From a virus: 24,583 bases of DNA. The stretch lies in the IMG/VR virus record IMGVR_UViG_3300014497_000223, positions 1 through 24,583 of that record; one strand, written 5' to 3'. The notes below the pieces were generated by a model. It worked only from the letters and a program-made list of their open reading frames with translations, did no database searches and was not told the origin of the DNA. The position numbers and the translations under genes were made by a program. Of the stretch, positions 2,325 to 18,884 are shown one piece after another (the first letter of the stretch is position 1; each line of letters opens with the position of its first letter).

Positions 2325-2775
2325 GCCGCCTTCGAGGCGCGCAGGTGCAGTTACGCCTCAACCGAGAGTGCTCACGCAGCGAACCGAAGTTCGCACGCAT
2401 AGCGGCCCAATTCCAGCTCCCGAAGATCTAGCGCGCTACGATGAATTGCTGCCAGGAGCGGCTGAGCGGATTTTGGCTATGGCTGAAATGGAGCAGCGCC
2501 ATCGCACCTCGATGGAGCAGGCTACCCTCATTTCCGATCAGCGGCACCGGAAAGACGTGCTTGATGCCCAGGGCGCCAACGCGCGCGGCATCTTTCGGAG
2601 TGATCTACTGGGGCAGACACTTGGAGGTGCGATTGCGCTCAGCTGCGTGGGAGGGGCTATCTACACCGCAGTCACAGGCTCGCCTTGGTACGTGGTGGCG
2701 ATCTTCCTAGGTTTGCCGGTCGCTTCGATCATCAAAGCTGTGCGCTCGATCGACAAGGCGAAGTCAAAAAGCTAG
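2317..2775 (+). CDS. DUF2335 family membrane protein
   Basis: The 152-residue protein carries the DUF2335 signature: HSGPIPAPEDLARYDELLPG at ~28-47, followed by AAERILAMAEMEQRHR and a charged helical stretch, then two hydrophobic segments (~96-118 and ~123-142) and a short Lys-rich tail. Family members are small predicted inner-membrane proteins of unknown function, frequent in prophages and other mobile DNA. The gene overlaps the upstream small gene by 8 bases and its stop overlaps the convergent integrase stop by 4 bases. It is a cargo gene of the prophage; a role in lysogen fitness or phage exclusion is speculation. Confidence 0.8.
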   Translation: MAKPPSRRAGAVTPQPRVLTQRTEVRTHSGPIPAPEDLARYDELLPGAAERILAMAEMEQRHRTSMEQATLISDQRHRKDVLDAQGANARGIFRSDLLGQTLGGAIALSCVGGAIYTAVTGSPWYVVAIFLGLPVASIIKAVRSIDKAKSKS

Positions 2776-3812
2776 CCTAGGCTCTTTCGCGTGGACACGC
2801 GAGAGCGGTCGTAGATTTTTGCCGTAGTCTTCGCATCAGCATGCAGTTCGGGCAGTCCACCGTACTGCGCCTTGTGCTGCGTTGTGTAGTAGGCCCGCAA
2901 ATCATGGAAGGTGAAGCGGCGCGGGATGATCTTGTCCGCGACCGCCTTCGACATCGCACGTTGCCAAGTTGAAGCGAAGCCGTCGTCGGTGTATGGATTG
3001 CCGTCGCGCGTGGTGAAGACGTGCAAGCACTCCTCGGGCCGTGGCAGTGCGCGCAGTCGCCGAATCAGATCCTCCATGCCTGCCGTGATCGACACGCTCT
3101 CAACGCGCGTTGCCCCGCCGTGTTGCTTCGCGCGCATCAATCGAATCGTGTTCGCCTCGCTGTCGATCTGAGGCAGCGTGAGGTGCAGGAACTCGATGCG
3201 ACGTGAGCCGACCATCGCGGCAAACTCGGCCATCAAGCCGATGACCTGGCGCTGCGGGCCCTGTGTGTTCAGCCATGCCAGGAACGCCGCGAACGTCTCG
3301 GGCTCGGGCGCTTCTGTACGTGGCCGTTCGAGGTTGCGCTTCACTTGCTTGCACGGGTTCACGTCGATGTCTCCGCGCTCGACGGCAACCGTCATCAGGT
3401 TGGCCAGCAGCGCGACCTCGCGGTTTGCGCGCACCGGTGCCTCGGCCCGCTCGACACGTAGGTACCGCGCGATGTCCGCAGGTCGGATCAGCCGCGCCGA
3501 AACCTTGCCCATCACCTCGAGCAGCTTCACGCTGTACTCGGTGTAATCGCTCTTCGTGCGCTCGCCTAGCCTCTTCCATTGCGGCATCGTCTGATAGGTG
3601 CGCCAGAGCTCTTCGATCGTGCCGGCGTCGCCGCTCGTGCCGTTCAGGTCGAGCACCTTTTGAATTGCTGCGCGCTTGTCCTGGCCGAGACTGATCGGCT
3701 TCCCTCCGACCGGGTGATACCGGTACGTCACCTTGTCGCTGCTGGCGTGTGGACGCGCCTCCATCCGGGGCAGCAGGCCGAAGCCTGATGCCCTCTCTCT
3801 TTTTCTTCCCAT
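2772..3812 (-). CDS. int: tyrosine recombinase integrase
   Basis: This 346-residue phage integrase has an N-terminal arm-binding region, a core-binding SAM-like domain (~60-155) and a catalytic domain. Catalytic residues are visible: Arg204 in GSRRIEFLHL, Lys229 in MRAKQHGG, His303/Arg306 in HDLRAYY, His324 in ELHADAKTT and the nucleophile Tyr334 in KIYDRS. It should integrate and excise the prophage at tRNA-Phe. The ATG at 3812 is preferred: it overlaps the stop of the upstream gene (TGATG) and has GGAG at proper spacing; a GTG three bases earlier is possible. The gene is the last of a leftward run and ends about 1 kb from the tRNA. Confidence 0.95.
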   Translation of the reverse strand: MGRKRERASGFGLLPRMEARPHASSDKVTYRYHPVGGKPISLGQDKRAAIQKVLDLNGTSGDAGTIEELWRTYQTMPQWKRLGERTKSDYTEYSVKLLEVMGKVSARLIRPADIARYLRVERAEAPVRANREVALLANLMTVAVERGDIDVNPCKQVKRNLERPRTEAPEPETFAAFLAWLNTQGPQRQVIGLMAEFAAMVGSRRIEFLHLTLPQIDSEANTIRLMRAKQHGGATRVESVSITAGMEDLIRRLRALPRPEECLHVFTTRDGNPYTDDGFASTWQRAMSKAVADKIIPRRFTFHDLRAYYTTQHKAQYGGLPELHADAKTTAKIYDRSRVSTRKSLG

Positions 3813-4045
3813 CACTTGCTCCAGTTGAATCCAGCGGGCGACGTGTAGCTGCCTGTGGCATTGAGCCGCTCTTCAACCAGGCGGCGGCCGACCAGCGGAA
3901 GGCCGTCAGGGCGCCGTGGCAGTTCCTTCACGCCGAGAAACGCGCACAGGTGTCGTGCCTGCGCGTGGCGCTGCGTGAGCGGGAAACACATCTCGTCGAC
4001 CTCTTCAGCAGAGAGGAATGGCGTGGTGAGTAGGGCTTCGATCAA
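3812..4045 (-). CDS. DUF4224-like small protein, possible excisionase
   Basis: The 77-residue protein begins with TTG (4045), overlapping the upstream TGA and preceded by GGGGGAAC. It contains FLSAEEVDEMC, then RHLCAFLGVKELPRRPDGLP and a short basic end, resembling DUF4224, in which FLT/S-x-EEL, a helix and an RxDGRP-like turn are typical. Such proteins are commonly encoded next to phage integrases, and a directionality-factor (Xis) role fits position and size. It is coupled to int by TGATG. The open frame extends upstream to 4315, but that part is a shadow of the next genes. Family match is moderate; function is inferred from context. Confidence 0.7.
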   Translation of the reverse strand: MIEALLTTPFLSAEEVDEMCFPLTQRHAQARHLCAFLGVKELPRRPDGLPLVGRRLVEERLNATGSYTSPAGFNWSK

Positions 4046-7051: not shown

Positions 7052-7720
7052 ATGAAGAGAGACGACATGTTCGATGGGGCGAGTGCGGTCGGCGCGCTCG
7101 CATTGGTGGTCTTGCTCGCATCGCTTGCTTTGATCGCGGCTGGGGGTTGGACCTGGTTCGCCAGATTCTTGGAATCGGCTGCTCCGGCTTGGGTGCAGGC
7201 TGTCGGGTCCGTGGTTGCAATCCTTGCCGCCGTCTGGATTGGTAAGCGGCAAGCCGAAACGGCGATTCAGCTTCAGCGCGACTTGTCGGTGTCGGAAGCC
7301 AGAAGAAAGCTTGAGGTGCTCGCAGGACTTGTGGATGCCGCTGCGCCGGCCATAAAGGAGGAGCGTGACGATGCGAGCCGGAACACAAATGCATGGGCGA
7401 AACTGTTTGATGACGCCGAATACAAGGAGTATGTCGACGCGGCTGCAGCCCTTTCGATCAACGATCTGCCCAGCTACGCGCTCGTCAAGACCTTGAAAGA
7501 GATTCGGTATCGACTCTTTTGTTGCTGGGACAACCTGAGGGACATATCTAGTAGTCCGGCCAACAAGGCTCACGTTGATGAGATGGTCGGATTTCTGGAC
7601 TTCAACCTTGAGGCATTGCGCGAAGCCCGCAAGACAATCGCTTACGAAGCTAAGTCGCTCGGGATCGAGCTTCCGCATGAGCCTTTGGAGTTCGGTGCTC
7701 ACGCGGCGGCCCTCCCGTAG
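7052..7720 (+). CDS. membrane-anchored protein, Abi-like architecture
   Basis: The 222-residue protein has two N-terminal membrane segments, ~14-33 (ALALVVLLASLALIAAGG) and ~46-63 (WVQAVGSVVAILAAVWIG). A basic stop-transfer (KRQAE) and a long helical cytoplasmic domain follow, with a Cys pair (LFCCWDNL). The ATG at 7052 has GGAGG five bases upstream; earlier ATGs at 7037 and 7040 are worse placed. The W-x-QAxGS-x3-I membrane helix followed by a soluble helical domain is seen in many uncharacterised phage and bacterial proteins, including putative abortive-infection proteins, but I cannot assign one. Its end overlaps the convergent methyltransferase end by 22 bases. Confidence 0.65.
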   Translation: MKRDDMFDGASAVGALALVVLLASLALIAAGGWTWFARFLESAAPAWVQAVGSVVAILAAVWIGKRQAETAIQLQRDLSVSEARRKLEVLAGLVDAAAPAIKEERDDASRNTNAWAKLFDDAEYKEYVDAAAALSINDLPSYALVKTLKEIRYRLFCCWDNLRDISSSPANKAHVDEMVGFLDFNLEALREARKTIAYEAKSLGIELPHEPLEFGAHAAALP

Positions 7721-10116
7721 ATCTGCGACTCGTGCGCAAAGTTGGCCCGCACGAGCGCCTCGGCCTGCGCCGGCGCCACGCTGTTGCCGCACATTCGCAC
7801 CTGAGCCGTCGCGCTGAGCTTGATGCGCGGCACCGCCAGCGGGTCAGCAGCCTGCACGCCGCCGGCGAAGAGCAGCGCCGGATCCGGAATCTCGTGGATC
7901 ACGTAGTCGGCCGGGAAGCTCTGCGCGAGGAACAGCTCGGGGGCCTTCAGCATCCGCAGCGTGATATCGACCAGCACCCACCATTGCCCCTCGTGGAGCA
8001 TCAGCACCAGGTCGGCCGGCTCCGGGAATTGCTCGGGTAGGTGCTCGTGCAGCAGGGCGGCGCAGCGCCGCGCCCGTTCGCGCAGCTCAGGCGCCAGGCA
8101 GTTGGCCGGCACTTGCTCGATCTCCACGAGTCCGATGCGGTCCTTGGTCGGCAGCGTATGCATGGGCTCGCGGAGCGAGACGCCATCGCGCTCGTTGCCG
8201 TAGTACTTCACGCAGTAGGCGGTGATCAGGCGCTGATTCGCGCCCTTCGACGTGATGGTCGAGAGCGGGTCATCGGCCGGGCGGCCGGTGTTGTCCTCGT
8301 TGAATCCGCCGTAGGCCTGCTCGATGCACGCCGACACCAGAGCCTGCTCGCCGCGATGCGCGCCGGTGACTGTGCGAAGCGGCTCGGCAACGTCATTGCC
8401 GGCGCGCTCGCCGTGGTGCGTCAGGTGCGTGAGGTGGACGGCAGCGACCGCGCTGGTGGCACCGCTGGCCGTCACCGTGTTGAGCGGTTGCTCGACGCTG
8501 CGCACGCCGTGGCTGAAGCGCTTGCTGCCATCCTTGCCTTCGCCGTGGCCCGCATCGACCAGGTGCGCGGCCACGATGCCCAGCGGGACGCTGCCGCCCG
8601 GGCGCTTGATGAAACTGTTCGCCGTGACGGTATGGAGCGGCTCCTGGATGTCGTGTCCCACGCTGTTGGAGCGAAACTTCGTGATGAACGCGCCTTCGAC
8701 CACCGCATGCTTCACGCCGCCGGCCACGACCGTGCCGAGCGGGCGCGTGATGTCGAGCGCGCGTGGCTCCTGCCCGGCGCGCTCGCCGTAGCCGATGGTC
8801 ACCAGGTTGGCGCTGGCCAGCGCGTGGTGCGTGCCGCCCGCAGAGATGGTCGACAGCGGCTGCTCGATGTCGTCGCCCTGCAGGTGGCTTTCTTCGGTGC
8901 CGCGCAACGGCGCGAGCGTAGGCGCCACTACCGAGAAGTGCCCGCCCTTGACCTGCGCGCAGATGGTGCGCAGCGGCTCGTCGGCTGCCATCGTGCGTTG
9001 GTTGCTGGCGTTCGCGTGCTCGTTGACGAATGGAGCCAGCACCGGCCCGACCGCGGCGAACCCGTTCGACGACGTGACGGTGCGCAGCGGTTGATCGGCG
9101 CCCCATGCGTTCGGGCCGCGCCCGGTGGTCTGTCCGTTCGCCGTGTTGGCGACGAATGGGGCCACAACCGGCTGCGCGAGTGCACGGTGGTTTTCCGTCG
9201 TCAGCGTGCCCAGCGGCTGGTCGACCGCGGTGGGTTTGCCTGAATACGTTGGGCCGCCCGCGCCCACGATGAAGGGCTTCGGGCTGGCCAGGACGTGGCG
9301 CCACAGGCCCTTCGCCACGCGGCGCATGGTGTTGGCCGCCAACGGGCGTTCCCTGCCGAACACGCTGCGCGCGGGCAGGTTGAAGTCGATGCACTCGGCA
9401 GCTGAGCGCCAAGGCAGCAGCTTGCCGGCCAGCACCTCGCGGCTCGTTGGATCGCCGTGCGTAGCCTCGGGCCAGACGATTGGCAGTCCGTCGCGGCGGG
9501 CAACGAGGAACAGGCGCTTGCGGATGGTCGGTGCGCCTTGGTCGCAAGCGCGCAGCTCGCGCCACTCGACTTTGTAGCCGTGGCCGCGCAACTGGCGCAC
9601 GAAGCTCTCGAAGGTCTTGCCCTTCTTGGCTGGATCGGGAATCCACGACACCTTCTCCACGCGCTCGCCGAAGTCGTTGATGTACGACGCATCGACTGCC
9701 TTCAACGGGCCCCATGTCTGGAATTCTTCGACGTTCTCCAACATCAGCACGCGCGGCTTGGTCAGCGCCACCCAGCGCATGCCCACCCATGCCAGGCCGC
9801 GGATGTGCTTCGCCACGGGCGTACCGCCCTTGGCCTTGGAAAAGTGCTTGCAGTCGGGCGAGAGCCAGACCAGCGCTACCGGCTGGTTGTGGGTGACCTT
9901 GATGGGGTCCACTTCCCACACGCTCTCGAGCAGATGTCGCGTGAGCGGGTGGTTGATCGCGTGCATCGCCAGTGCCTCGGGATCGTGGTTGATGGCAATG
10001 TCCACCGGGCGACCGAAGGCAGCTTCGAGGCCGGTGGACGTGCCACCGCCGCCAGCGAAGTTGTCGATGATGAGCTCGTGCGGGAAGAGCTCCATGGTGA
10101 AGTCGTCGCGCTTCAT
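7699..10116 (-). CDS. phage C5-cytosine DNA methyltransferase with internal repeats
   Basis: The 805-residue enzyme transfers methyl from SAM to C5 of cytosine. Motif I is DNFAGGGGTSTGLEAA (~18-33). Motif IV is SPDCKHFSK with catalytic Cys89 (PDC instead of the usual PPC). Motif VI is LENVEEF (127-129) and motif VIII is QGAPTIRKRLFLVA (~193-206). Motif X is MCGNSVAPA (~775-783). The ~360 residues between motifs VIII and X (297-662), where the target-recognition region lies, hold ten degenerate repeats centred on D-x-PL-x-T-V/I-T. Typical single-domain C5 enzymes are 300-450 residues. The start overlaps the upstream stop (ATGA). It is the last gene of the leftward early operon. Likely role: protecting phage DNA from host restriction. 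Confidence 0.92.
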   Translation of the reverse strand: MKRDDFTMELFPHELIIDNFAGGGGTSTGLEAAFGRPVDIAINHDPEALAMHAINHPLTRHLLESVWEVDPIKVTHNQPVALVWLSPDCKHFSKAKGGTPVAKHIRGLAWVGMRWVALTKPRVLMLENVEEFQTWGPLKAVDASYINDFGERVEKVSWIPDPAKKGKTFESFVRQLRGHGYKVEWRELRACDQGAPTIRKRLFLVARRDGLPIVWPEATHGDPTSREVLAGKLLPWRSAAECIDFNLPARSVFGRERPLAANTMRRVAKGLWRHVLASPKPFIVGAGGPTYSGKPTAVDQPLGTLTTENHRALAQPVVAPFVANTANGQTTGRGPNAWGADQPLRTVTSSNGFAAVGPVLAPFVNEHANASNQRTMAADEPLRTICAQVKGGHFSVVAPTLAPLRGTEESHLQGDDIEQPLSTISAGGTHHALASANLVTIGYGERAGQEPRALDITRPLGTVVAGGVKHAVVEGAFITKFRSNSVGHDIQEPLHTVTANSFIKRPGGSVPLGIVAAHLVDAGHGEGKDGSKRFSHGVRSVEQPLNTVTASGATSAVAAVHLTHLTHHGERAGNDVAEPLRTVTGAHRGEQALVSACIEQAYGGFNEDNTGRPADDPLSTITSKGANQRLITAYCVKYYGNERDGVSLREPMHTLPTKDRIGLVEIEQVPANCLAPELRERARRCAALLHEHLPEQFPEPADLVLMLHEGQWWVLVDITLRMLKAPELFLAQSFPADYVIHEIPDPALLFAGGVQAADPLAVPRIKLSATAQVRMCGNSVAPAQAEALVRANFAHESQIYGRAAA
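8122..9228 (-). repeat. ten degenerate coding repeats in the methyltransferase
   Basis: Within residues ~297-662 a unit ending D/E-x-PL-x-T-V/I-T recurs with its PL (or PM) at residues 301, 343, 381, 420, 459, 493, 544, 579, 617 and 651, i.e. every 34-51 residues. Units diverge in between but often share APFV, YGE/HGERAG and a following A-rich strand. Confidence 0.85.
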
Positions 10117-15743: not shown

Positions 15744-15922
15744 GCGACCCCACCCCCCCATGCGAGCAATTCGCGCGCGTCGGACAGCGCGTTTTGTCAG
15801 TAACTACAGGGCACCTTTTTGGTGATATTTGTAACCGAAACGGGGGGTCCTCCCTGGCCCTAGGCCAAGAGGGTAATTCGAACCCCTCGCGGTGTGTAGT
15901 CAGCGGAGTGCGAACTTACTGA
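15740..15922 (+). CDS. possible 60-residue leader protein before the primase
   Basis: The frame starts at an ATGA overlap with the CII-like gene and its stop overlaps the primase ATG as TGATG, which favours real translation and coupling. The protein is not family-like: MSDPTPPCEQFARVGQRVLS then a Gly/Ser/Asn-rich stretch. Part of the same DNA (15841-15890) is a set of short palindromes. It could be a translated leader rather than a functional protein. Confidence 0.4.
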   Translation: MSDPTPPCEQFARVGQRVLSVTTGHLFGDICNRNGGSSLALGQEGNSNPSRCVVSGVRTY

Positions 15923-18345
15923 TGGCCTCGAATTACGACGACGTGCTGGGCCAGCTGCAGGCCGCGGGCCTGATCGTGGACAGCCTGGACATCGGCCGGC
16001 TGCGCCGCTGCCGTGTGGTCGATGACCGCGAGCGCCGTGGCTGGTACCTGCTGCACGAGATCCGCATGGACAACGGCGAGGACCTCATCGTCGGGAGCTA
16101 CGGCGTGTGGCGCGGCGCGGACAATAACGCGACGAAGGTGGAGCTGCGCAAGACCGAACTCAGCGCCGAGCAGCGCGACAGCCTGCGCAAGCGGCTCGCC
16201 GACGACAAGCGCCGCGCCGAGCAAGCGCGCCAGGCCGATGCCGATCGCGCGGCGGCCCGAGCCACCTCCGCCTGGCGCAAGTGCTCCGAGCAAGGTGACA
16301 GCGGCTACCTCCAGCGCAAGGGGGTGGGGGCGCATGGTGTGCGCTTCAGCCCGCAGGGCGCCATGGTCGTGCCGATGCTGGACACGGCGGGCCGTGTTCA
16401 CGGCCTGCAGATCATCCGGGACCGCAAGAAGCAGGGCGTGCGCCTCGAGAAGGAGTTCTGGCCCGCGGGCCTCGTGAAGAAGGGGCACTTCCACCTGCTG
16501 GGCATGGGCGGGCCGATCATGCTCGTAGCTGAGGGCTACGCGACGGCCGCCAGCCTGCACGAAGCTACGGGCCTGCCGGTCGCTGTCGCGTTCGATGCCG
16601 GCAACCTGCAGCCAGTCGCGGCCGAGCTGCGCAAGCGCTACAAGCTGGCGAAGCTGCTCATCTGCGCCGACGACGACAACACGCAGAAGTGCCAGCAGCC
16701 CGAGTGCAAGCGGCGCGTGTGGGTTGCCGACGGCCCGATCTGCCCGCACTGCGGCCAGCCGCACAAGGCGACGAACGCCGGCGTGTCCGCGGCCAGCCTC
16801 ACCGCCATGGCCGTCGGCGGCGGGTGGATGGTGCCAGGCTGGGCCGACCCTGAAACACGCCGCACCGACTGGCTGGAAAAGGGCGCGAAGCTCAACGACT
16901 TCAACGACCTGCACCTGGCCGAGGGCCTGCACGCCGTGCGTGCGCAGGTGGAGTCCCGCATCTCGGGATTGGGCTGGCGCGCGCAGGGCGCGGCGCGTGC
17001 CCCACACAGCAAGGGGAGTGGGGCCGACGGCAAGCCTGCGGCCGCGCCGCTGCGCCCCATCGATTCGCTCGACGAGCTGCTCGAGCGCTTCGCGCTGGTC
17101 TATGGCCAGGGCGGCGTCACCTTCGACCACCAGGAGCACATGCTCGTGGCGCTCAGCGACATGCGCGATGCGTGCCTGAGCCGGGAGACGCACCGCGCGT
17201 GGGCCGAGCATCCCGAGAAGCAGATCGTGCGTGTCACCGAGGTCGGCTTCGATCCAGCGTGCACCGACACCACCATCCACTGCAACCTCTGGGCAGGCTG
17301 GCCCACGGAGGCGAAGGCGGGGAAGTGCGAGTACCTGCTCGACCTGCTGCGCCACATGTGCGCCGGCGACAGCCGCCCGGATGCGCTGTACGAGTGGGTG
17401 CTGCGATGGATCGCCTACCCGATCCAGCACCCGGGCGCGAAGATGAAAACGACGCTCGTGTTGCACGGGCCGCAGGGCACCGGCAAGAACATGTTCTTCG
17501 AAGCGCTAATGGCGATCTACGGGCGCTACGGCCGCGTCATCGACCAAAGTGCGATCGAAGACAAGTTCAACGACTGGGCCAGTCGCAAGCTGTTCCTCAT
17601 CGCTGACGAAGTGGTGGCGCGGTCCGACCTCTACCACGTCAAGAACAAGCTCAAGGCCTTCATCACCGGGGACTGGATCCGCATCAACCCGAAGAATTTC
17701 TCGGCATACGACGAACGCAACCACGTCAACCTGGTGTTCCTGAGCAACGAGACGATGCCGGTGGTGCTCGAGCAGGACGACCGGCGGCACGCCGTCATCT
17801 GGACGCCCGAGAAACTGAGCCGCGAGTTCTACCGCGACCTGCTCGTGGAGCTGGAGAACGGCGGCGCTGCAGCGCTGCACGACTACCTGCTGCACGTCGA
17901 CCTCGGCGACTTCACCGAAGGCACGCTGCCACCGATGACCGAGGCAAAGCGCGAGCTGATCGACCTCAGCATGGACAGCCCGAGCCGCTTCTTCAAGGCC
18001 TTCGAGTCGGGCGAGATCGACGGCTTCCCGGCCAGGAACGCGCCGAAGCTGCTGAGCCCGATGCTGCCCCTGGACCTCTACGCCCTGTACGGGGCCTGGT
18101 GTCATCGCGTGGGCCTCAAGGCGCTGCATCAACCACGGTTCGCGAGCGAGCTGATGCGCAAGCACGGCGCCAAGACCCTTTCGAAGCGCTACGACCTCGG
18201 CGTGGGCGTGAAGGGCCCGTCCGGGGTCACGTTCCTGCCCGGTGGTGCCGAGTGCCCGGTCGGCGAACACGAGCCGACGTGGATCGGCGACAGGGCGCGC
18301 GCCTTCAAGGACTCGCTCAAGGTATTCCGCGAAGGGGGGCATTGA
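15922..18345 (+). CDS. phage primase-helicase (TOPRIM plus SF3-like ATPase)
   Basis: The 807-residue replication protein has an N-terminal region with a charged coiled stretch (~75-112), a TOPRIM-like domain (~195-255) with Glu204 in MLVAEGYATAASL and the acidic CADDD at ~248-252, and a zinc-ribbon-like insert (C257, C262, C274, C277). The C-terminal helicase/ATPase domain (DUF5906-like) has Walker A GPQGTGKN (516-523) and Walker B LFLIADE (557-563), followed by VFLSNE. It should synthesise primers and unwind DNA at the phage origin. It starts at the ATG within TGATG, coupled to the small upstream frame. The iteron array lies directly downstream. Confidence 0.9.
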   Translation: MASNYDDVLGQLQAAGLIVDSLDIGRLRRCRVVDDRERRGWYLLHEIRMDNGEDLIVGSYGVWRGADNNATKVELRKTELSAEQRDSLRKRLADDKRRAEQARQADADRAAARATSAWRKCSEQGDSGYLQRKGVGAHGVRFSPQGAMVVPMLDTAGRVHGLQIIRDRKKQGVRLEKEFWPAGLVKKGHFHLLGMGGPIMLVAEGYATAASLHEATGLPVAVAFDAGNLQPVAAELRKRYKLAKLLICADDDNTQKCQQPECKRRVWVADGPICPHCGQPHKATNAGVSAASLTAMAVGGGWMVPGWADPETRRTDWLEKGAKLNDFNDLHLAEGLHAVRAQVESRISGLGWRAQGAARAPHSKGSGADGKPAAAPLRPIDSLDELLERFALVYGQGGVTFDHQEHMLVALSDMRDACLSRETHRAWAEHPEKQIVRVTEVGFDPACTDTTIHCNLWAGWPTEAKAGKCEYLLDLLRHMCAGDSRPDALYEWVLRWIAYPIQHPGAKMKTTLVLHGPQGTGKNMFFEALMAIYGRYGRVIDQSAIEDKFNDWASRKLFLIADEVVARSDLYHVKNKLKAFITGDWIRINPKNFSAYDERNHVNLVFLSNETMPVVLEQDDRRHAVIWTPEKLSREFYRDLLVELENGGAAALHDYLLHVDLGDFTEGTLPPMTEAKRELIDLSMDSPSRFFKAFESGEIDGFPARNAPKLLSPMLPLDLYALYGAWCHRVGLKALHQPRFASELMRKHGAKTLSKRYDLGVGVKGPSGVTFLPGGAECPVGEHEPTWIGDRARAFKDSLKVFREGGH

Positions 18346-18371
18346 TGTCGCAGGGGTCGTTCGTCCAGTTC

Positions 18372-18620
18372 TGTGAGGCATGTGAGCTATCTGTGAGCCA
18401 TGGTGTGAGGCAAGAAAACCCAATGAAATCAACGCTTGTGAGGTATGTGAGGCATCCCGGCCTCACTCGCCCATGTGTGCGCATGCACAGGTGCGTGCGC
18501 ACACCCGCATGCACGTGCACCCGCCTGCATGCCTCACATACCTCACATACCCCACACGCCAATGCCGACAGGCACTTACGTGCGCACCCATGCCCCACAC
18601 CACCCCTCACACGCCTCACA
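18372..18620. repeat. mirrored iteron array, candidate replication origin
   Basis: Direct 9-mers TGTGAG(G/C)(C/T)A start at 18372, 18381, 18392, 18404, 18437 and 18446. Inverted copies (TGCCTCACA type) start at 18530, 18539, 18548, 18591, 18603 and 18612; the last four are less exact. The copies at 18438-18455 and 18529-18546 form a perfect 18-bp inverted repeat. Between them, ~18472-18524 is mostly alternating purine-pyrimidine. It lies directly after the primase-helicase gene. Confidence 0.75.
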
Positions 18621-18632
18621 AAAAAGGATGAG

Positions 18633-18884
18633 ATGGACGGAGAAGTGATTTCGAAGGTGATCCGCTGCACAGCGGCGAACGCGGCTGCGTTCGAGGCCAT
18701 GGTCAATGGCTGGCCGGAGCTGAAGGCGTTGGTGCGCCGCCTGCGCGCTGACGACCTGTTCCCGGGCCTGCGCGGGATGCAGGTGACGCTGACCGGCAGC
18801 CCTGCATGGGTCGGGAAGGGGTTGGCCGCAATCGCAACGGATAGGGCCGGCGATGCAGTCGTGGGGAGGCAGCATGCAGATTGA
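18633..18884 (+). CDS. small phage protein, 83 aa
   Basis: The ATG at 18633 follows AAGGATGAG. The protein has ISKVIRCTAANAAAFEAMVN, then PELKALVRRLRADDLFPGLR and QVTLTGSPAWVGKGLAAIAT; it is mixed helical/beta, family unknown. The same frame is open back to an ATG at 18345 (TGATG with the primase stop, good ribosome-binding site), which would give 179 residues, but the added part is encoded by the iterons and is unlike a folded protein. Its end overlaps the next gene by 11 bases. Confidence 0.55.
   Translation: MDGEVISKVIRCTAANAAAFEAMVNGWPELKALVRRLRADDLFPGLRGMQVTLTGSPAWVGKGLAAIATDRAGDAVVGRQHAD

Follow-up and report, generated by a model that had tools for sequence, protein, structure and literature searches.

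The question raised by this locus is what twelve short repeats, arranged in two mirrored halves directly behind a primase-helicase gene, do for the phage that carries them, and which protein reads them. The window, i.e. the whole stretch of DNA that was analysed (24583 bases), is a prophage fragment that encodes a terminase, a portal protein, a repressor and an integrase. Genes for a CII-like activator, a Cro-like protein and a CI-like repressor are located upstream of the primase, while downstream of the array a conserved hypothetical gene of 83 aa (18633–18884, + strand, ATG at 18633) is followed by genes for a minor tail protein, the small and large terminase subunits, a Mor-like protein and the portal protein. 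A tRNA-Phe gene (1710–1785) lying ~1 kb ahead of the integrase gene (2772–3815), with sensor-kinase and response-regulator-like genes on its left, is likely the phage attachment site.

The array and its core

The six direct and six inverted 9-mers of TGTGAGGCA type that had been claimed in the first-pass annotation were confirmed between positions 18372 and 18620 of the window, each copy with 0–2 mismatches. On the + strand a group of four, R1 (TGTGAGGCA, 18372–18380), R2 (TGTGAGCTA, two mismatches, 18381–18389), R3 (TGTGAGCCA, 18392–18400) and R4 (TGTGAGGCA, 18404–18412), is followed by a left spacer (18413–18436) and an inner pair, R5 (TGTGAGGTA, 18437–18445) and R6 (TGTGAGGCA, 18446–18454). 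Behind a core of 75 bp (18455–18529), the presumed opening region, the inverted copies on the - strand begin with an inner triplet, r1 (TGTGAGGCA, 18530–18538), r2 (TGTGAGGTA, 18539–18547) and r3 (TGTGGGGTA, two mismatches, 18548–18556), and continue after a right spacer containing CACTTACG (18557–18590) with r4 (TGTGGGGCA, 18591–18599), r5 (TGTGAGGGG, two mismatches, 18603–18611) and r6 (TGTGAGGCG, 18612–18620). The inverted repeat described earlier as exact over 18 bp is indeed exact but one base longer, pairing 18437–18455 with 18529–18547 over 19 bp, and lies within a 25-nt repeat of 92%. Among the 13 matches with at most one mismatch to TGTGAGGCA in the whole 24.6-kb window, nine fall inside these 250 bp, and the mirrored-array score is 34, whereas 100 dinucleotide-preserving shuffles did not exceed 16 (mean 8.8). 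No second 9-mer cluster was found within the 24.6-kb window, which may not cover the whole phage genome. In the surroundings of the array the GC skew is flat and uninformative, and an Rfam search of the array gave only a sub-threshold chance match, MIR1437.

The core had been described as about 50 bases of alternating purines and pyrimidines; its length proved to be 75 bp and the alternation is real, 74% of the steps alternating against 49% in shuffled sequence, with a longest run of 18. Over 120 cores from relatives the mean is 0.69 against 0.50 when shuffled, and in 95 of them the alternation is above the 95th percentile of the same phages' coding DNA. The sequence of these 120 cores varies while the alternation is kept, and the GC content is 69% in the window and on average 61% over the set. 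Alternation, a conserved feature of the core, is the kind of tract expected of a Z-DNA element, as had been noted in the first-pass annotation; the core may form Z-DNA, or its many pyrimidine-purine steps could just make it easy to open or to bend.

The spacers of related arrays contain exact IHF consensus sites, 22 of 105 in the left and 14 of 105 in the right spacer where 0.1 would be expected in each, counts that are inflated by shared ancestry. No IHF consensus was found in the core of any of the 105 arrays. In the cases listed the sites of the two spacers are oppositely oriented and thus mirrored, and both spacers carry such sites, in opposite directions, in L005, L008, L010, L014, L020, L042 and others. 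The window's own spacers hold no IHF match within one mismatch, the right one being a degenerate form of the consensus seen in relatives.

Layout and repeat unit in relatives

To look for repeats beside homologous primases, as had been proposed in the first-pass annotation, 151 non-redundant loci were collected by six scans with the window primase and four diverged relatives, together with Stenotrophomonas phage S1. A mirrored array was present behind the primase stop in 133 of them. Of the remaining 18, five break off no more than 190 bases from the primase stop; among the other 13, the array of L057 is located 642 bp further on, and L109, L221, L224 and L226 proved to be misread primase ends with the inner palindrome at or near the true end. 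Since a gene lies in between in L057, where the array uses the unit TGTGCAGGG, the array does not have to adjoin the primase gene directly. The Bordetella BPP-1 primase, which belongs to another family and makes a useful negative control, has no array behind its gene (score 11, no better than shuffles). No close primase homologue was found on plasmids, which would have offered a test case free of terminase, and blastn of the array against phage records gave no match, as expected if the array sequence turns over. In close relatives the 83-aa protein (IRCT...WPEL..LV) is encoded directly behind the array. It has no Pfam or PHROG match, and its gene is not regarded as part of the putative origin because other clades have a different gene at this place.

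In the canonical order four direct copies and, past a spacer, two more precede the core, which is followed by three inverted copies and, past a second spacer, another three, with starts at 0, 9, 20–21 and 32–33 followed by steps of +32 and +9, a core of 64–98 bp and then steps of 9, 9, ~43, 12 and 9. Among 105 deduplicated arrays six copies are found in the left half of 78 and in the right half of 63, the commonest pair of copy numbers being 6+6 (49/105). The outer spacings cluster at ~20–22, 31–34, 41–45, 54–55 and 64–68 bp with few cases between (preferred values ~20, 32, 43 and 66–68 on the left and 21, 31, 43, 55 and 65 on the right), and these steps of ~11 bp, roughly one helical turn, suggest that the sites must keep to the same face of the helix.

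In L045, L046, L050, L067 and their kin one iteron per half is flipped (+++-++|---+--), at mirrored positions, as if the halves are kept symmetric. The distant relatives pAN, H4907, Mcat9 and PS3 keep the inner palindrome while the outer groups vary; the outer right copies of pAN and H4907 are direct, oriented like those of the left half. Strict mirroring is therefore not required, and the inner pair, core and triplet look like the essential unit.

While the layout is conserved the 9-mer differs between phages, yet it is common to all copies within one phage. The unit types comprise TGTGAGGCA, TGTGCGGYA, TGTGCGCYA, TGTGGGGTA, TGTGCCGGG, TGTGCAGGG, TGTGCGGGG and TGTCGRSCA, and further types include ATTACGCTT and CGCTACGGG. 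The simplest cause of such concerted change would be a trans-acting reader with a shifting preference. In L034 (6380–6720) two copies at the left end are of TGTGCCG type and the others TGAGACGGG, residue 754 of the primase still being Arg; this array seems to be caught in transition, or it could be an assembly chimera.

Primase residues that follow the repeat unit

The proposed initiator, a protein of 807 aa encoded directly upstream of the array (15922–18345, + strand), was analysed with Pfam, PHROGs, AF2 and Foldseek. It combines a Toprim_3 primase and a DUF5906/VapE-type SF3 helicase with a predicted C-terminal winged-helix-like domain, matches the PHROG 'DNA primase' and gave an AF2 model with a mean pLDDT of 85. 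Its best Foldseek matches are the NrS-1 primase-helicase, the SaPI5 primase-helicase and pox D5/E5, with 7ola, 7om0 and 7pds matched at 1e-7 to 1e-9 and NrS-1 6k9c being the closest solved helicase region (Foldseek 1.9e-17; profile E 9e-23). The C-terminal profile matches 7ola weakly (E 0.046), and the isolated C-terminal domain gave weak fold matches (best VIA Z 5.3, to RFX; Foldseek E 0.12), so that the term winged helix rests on the predicted topology.

When the distance between units was compared with the local primase distance after removal of the overall primase distance (partial Mantel), a single dominant peak appeared at residues 741–775 (0.465). Together with the AF2 secondary structure, in which a predicted recognition helix (737–748) is followed by the two strands of a wing hairpin (751–758 and 763–771), this points to residues 737–775 (18130–18246, + strand) as the putative iteron-reading segment. 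In a second set the correlation was 0.40 for primase 737–775 against 0.10 for the terminase small-subunit HTH, and the latter fell to -0.03 given the primase domain.

Within this segment residue 754, in the first predicted wing strand and encoded in the window by TCG (Ser, 18181–18183, + strand), predicts base 5 of the unit in all 103 comparable loci, ~30 loci with units of uncertain register having been excluded. Arg754 occurs with C at base 5 in 92 of 92 loci, and another residue with A or G in 11 of 11, these being Ser or Pro (TGTGAGGCA), Ile (TGTGAAGGG), Gln (TGTGGGGTA) and Tyr/His (TGTCG). The pattern was first seen in the first set of loci; later scans brought no new non-C type, and all TGTGC loci added after that set carry Arg754. 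On a tree of residues 1–640 base 5 switches five times, each switch forced by well-supported branches, and residue 754 accompanies it in all five independent pairs; a sign test on these alone yields p = 0.0625. What gives the link its weight is that 754 is the one error-free column of ~800 and lies inside the predicted DNA-binding region; every other column of the primase makes at least six errors against base 5. The window is itself one of these switches when compared with L002, L003 and L083 (TGTGC units, Arg754), the primase bodies being 84–88% identical and residues 736–775 only 65–68%. Between the primases of L026 and L036 identity is 98% in the body but only 73% over residues 736–775, and their iterons, TGTGCCGGG and TGTGCAGGG, differ at base 6, which looks like the exchange of a cassette made up of the C-terminal domain and the origin.

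A candidate replication origin and its alternatives

Judged from the comparison of sequences, the array is very probably the DNA replication origin of the prophage. This function had been suggested earlier from the position just after the primase-helicase gene, and it gains comparative support because the unit sequence covaries with the predicted C-terminal DNA-binding region of the primase. The joint change of repeats and residue 754 points to the primase-helicase as the protein that reads the 9-mers. The protein made from the upstream gene would bind them through its putative C-terminal winged-helix domain (residues ~737–775), residue 754 reading base 5 of the unit, and the six sites flanking the core on either side would most likely gather six subunits each. 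Two SF3 rings may then assemble head to head around the core, the alternating and easily distorted sequence would open between them, and the rings would move apart, with primers for both forks made by the Toprim domain. While the array, its conserved layout, the concerted change of the unit and its covariation with the C-terminal domain of the primase are observed, binding to DNA, function as an origin, a hexamer on each half, opening of the core and bidirectional replication are what we infer here, and the explanation as a whole, an origin bound by the C-terminal domain at six sites per half with two rings and replication both ways, is considered highly probable. Loading of two helicases would fit both the modal 6+6 copies and the reported binding of SaPI Rep as two hexamers (PMC7581432).

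The presence of terminase genes within ~0.9–4.7 kb of the array in 97 of the 108 loci with enough sequence brings to mind a packaging (cos) site, with cosB-like repeats read by the terminase small subunit encoded just downstream; in lambda-type phages cos is a dyad-symmetric site upstream of the gene for that subunit. However, the unit tracks the C-terminal domain of the primase and not the terminase HTH, and array and terminase come apart in some phages: in Halomonas phage H4907 the array stays beside the primase with the terminase ~2.9 kb away behind lysis genes, Mcat9 resembles H4907, and pAN has no terminase before the end of its record. In addition, the record of Stenotrophomonas phage S1, whose start may be a cos end, opens 39 bp upstream of the primase, and the array lies ~2.4 kb inside it. 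The cos site, rejected on the covariation and on phages with array and terminase apart, is accordingly given very little probability. The same low standing is given to the repeats being operators for the control of late or early transcription by the primase or by some other phage protein, without any origin; an intergenic position between early and late genes would suit this, whereas twelve sites in a fixed layout, an opening-prone core and a coupled primase-helicase are the architecture of an origin.

A further alternative is that structure matters and not the 9-mer sequence, the inverted repeat acting as a stem-loop, cruciform or RNA hairpin. A single strand does fold far better than shuffles (z -6.5), and for pRN1 a stem-loop downstream of the replication gene has been proposed at the origin (PMC4234260). 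A stem would not explain why one unit is common to all copies, even direct ones with no need to pair, why spacings shift by helical-turn steps or why the unit follows a DNA-binding domain, and in pAN and H4907 the orientation of the outer right copies makes a mirrored stem impossible; this reading is thought very unlikely, if slightly less so than the two before it. Least likely of all is that the array frame is translated and the repeats encode a Cys-rich protein. As had been noted in the first-pass annotation, the region is an open frame joined to both neighbours, extending from 18345 to 18884 in the frame of the 83-aa gene, and 87% of arrays, against 47% of shuffles, have one or more forward frames open. 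The frame is, however, not conserved and probably not coding: which frame is open varies among relatives, spacers shift by 1–2 bases (the array spans of the window and L003 differ by 2 bp), and a stop-free repeated unit keeps frames open by itself. Coding repeats were rejected because the frame is not conserved. Phage S1 is annotated with an ORF across the array, gp2 (EU849489, 2454–2804; L102), which is probably not a real gene.

The mirrored layout had been set against ordinary one-way iterons in the first-pass annotation, but precedents for it are known. In the SaPI origin oppositely oriented sets of iterons surround an AT-rich region, and by analogy this origin is the closest documented case. 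The iterons of SaPI Rep lie directly downstream of its gene and are recognised through the C-terminal domain, the protein apparently binding as two hexamers (PMC7581432). The window protein shares an SF3 helicase related to SaPI Rep/D5 (Foldseek; Pfam DUF5906, VapE) and the location of the array directly downstream of the helicase gene (133/151 loci). It differs in belonging to a proteobacterial temperate-phage family with a Toprim instead of an AEP primase, in 9-mers with a fixed 4+2/3+3 layout and IHF-type sites in some clades, and in a GC-containing alternating core (69% GC in the window) where SaPI has an AT-rich middle; nor is the window a helper-induced satellite island, having terminase, portal, repressor and integrase genes of its own. 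In P4 alpha a single protein comprises a Toprim primase, an SF3 helicase and a C-terminal winged helix that binds the origin (PMC4234260). The same three parts, with the winged helix taken from predicted topology, and an iteron origin are proposed here, whereas the window differs from P4 ori1/crr in the mirrored 6+6 layout and shows no second 9-mer cluster within its 24.6 kb, which may fall short of the whole phage genome; the P4 origin-binding domain is absent among the fold matches listed for the C-terminal domain.

NrS-1, the closest in its helicase region (6k9c), has an AEP-type prim-pol, and to our knowledge no iteron origin has been described for it. SV40 T antigen and papillomavirus E1 are SF3 initiators that act at inverted sites as double hexamers and replicate bidirectionally, but with an N-terminal origin-binding domain and fewer sites than here; GAGGC, common to SV40 and the window unit, is taken as coincidence because relatives use other bases. 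In the geminivirus Rep system the iterons vary together with those residues of the initiator that set its specificity, much as unit and residue 754 do here, although that protein is an unrelated rolling-circle HUH initiator and not a winged helix. No description of the present family was found in the literature searched; the origin is of a known general kind, and the variant and the phage family appear undescribed there.

What the array would offer is a candidate origin and reader for a large proteobacterial prophage family without a described origin in that literature, and more than 100 versions of one initiator-origin pair that occur in nature, some with almost the same protein but different sites. 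Three questions become testable with it: how SF3 helicases select their sites, whether the double hexamer is set by six sites per side, and how whole arrays switch in concert. An even chance is given to a broader reading in which a widespread prophage origin has exactly six sites per half, selected through the turnover of every base of the site, and iterons and wing co-evolve as lock and key with a specificity code of Arg754 for C5, Gln for G5 and Ser/Pro/Ile for A5. If true, no other natural system would be as clear for asking how double SF3 hexamers are counted onto DNA and how replicons change their origin specificity.

Elsewhere in the window, a C5-cytosine DNA methyltransferase of 805 aa is encoded at 7699–10116 (- strand). 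Between its conserved parts lies a long stretch rich in segments that resemble one another (PL.T..), and PHROG 116 matches across residues 13–799 while PHROG 23072 matches in four stretches.
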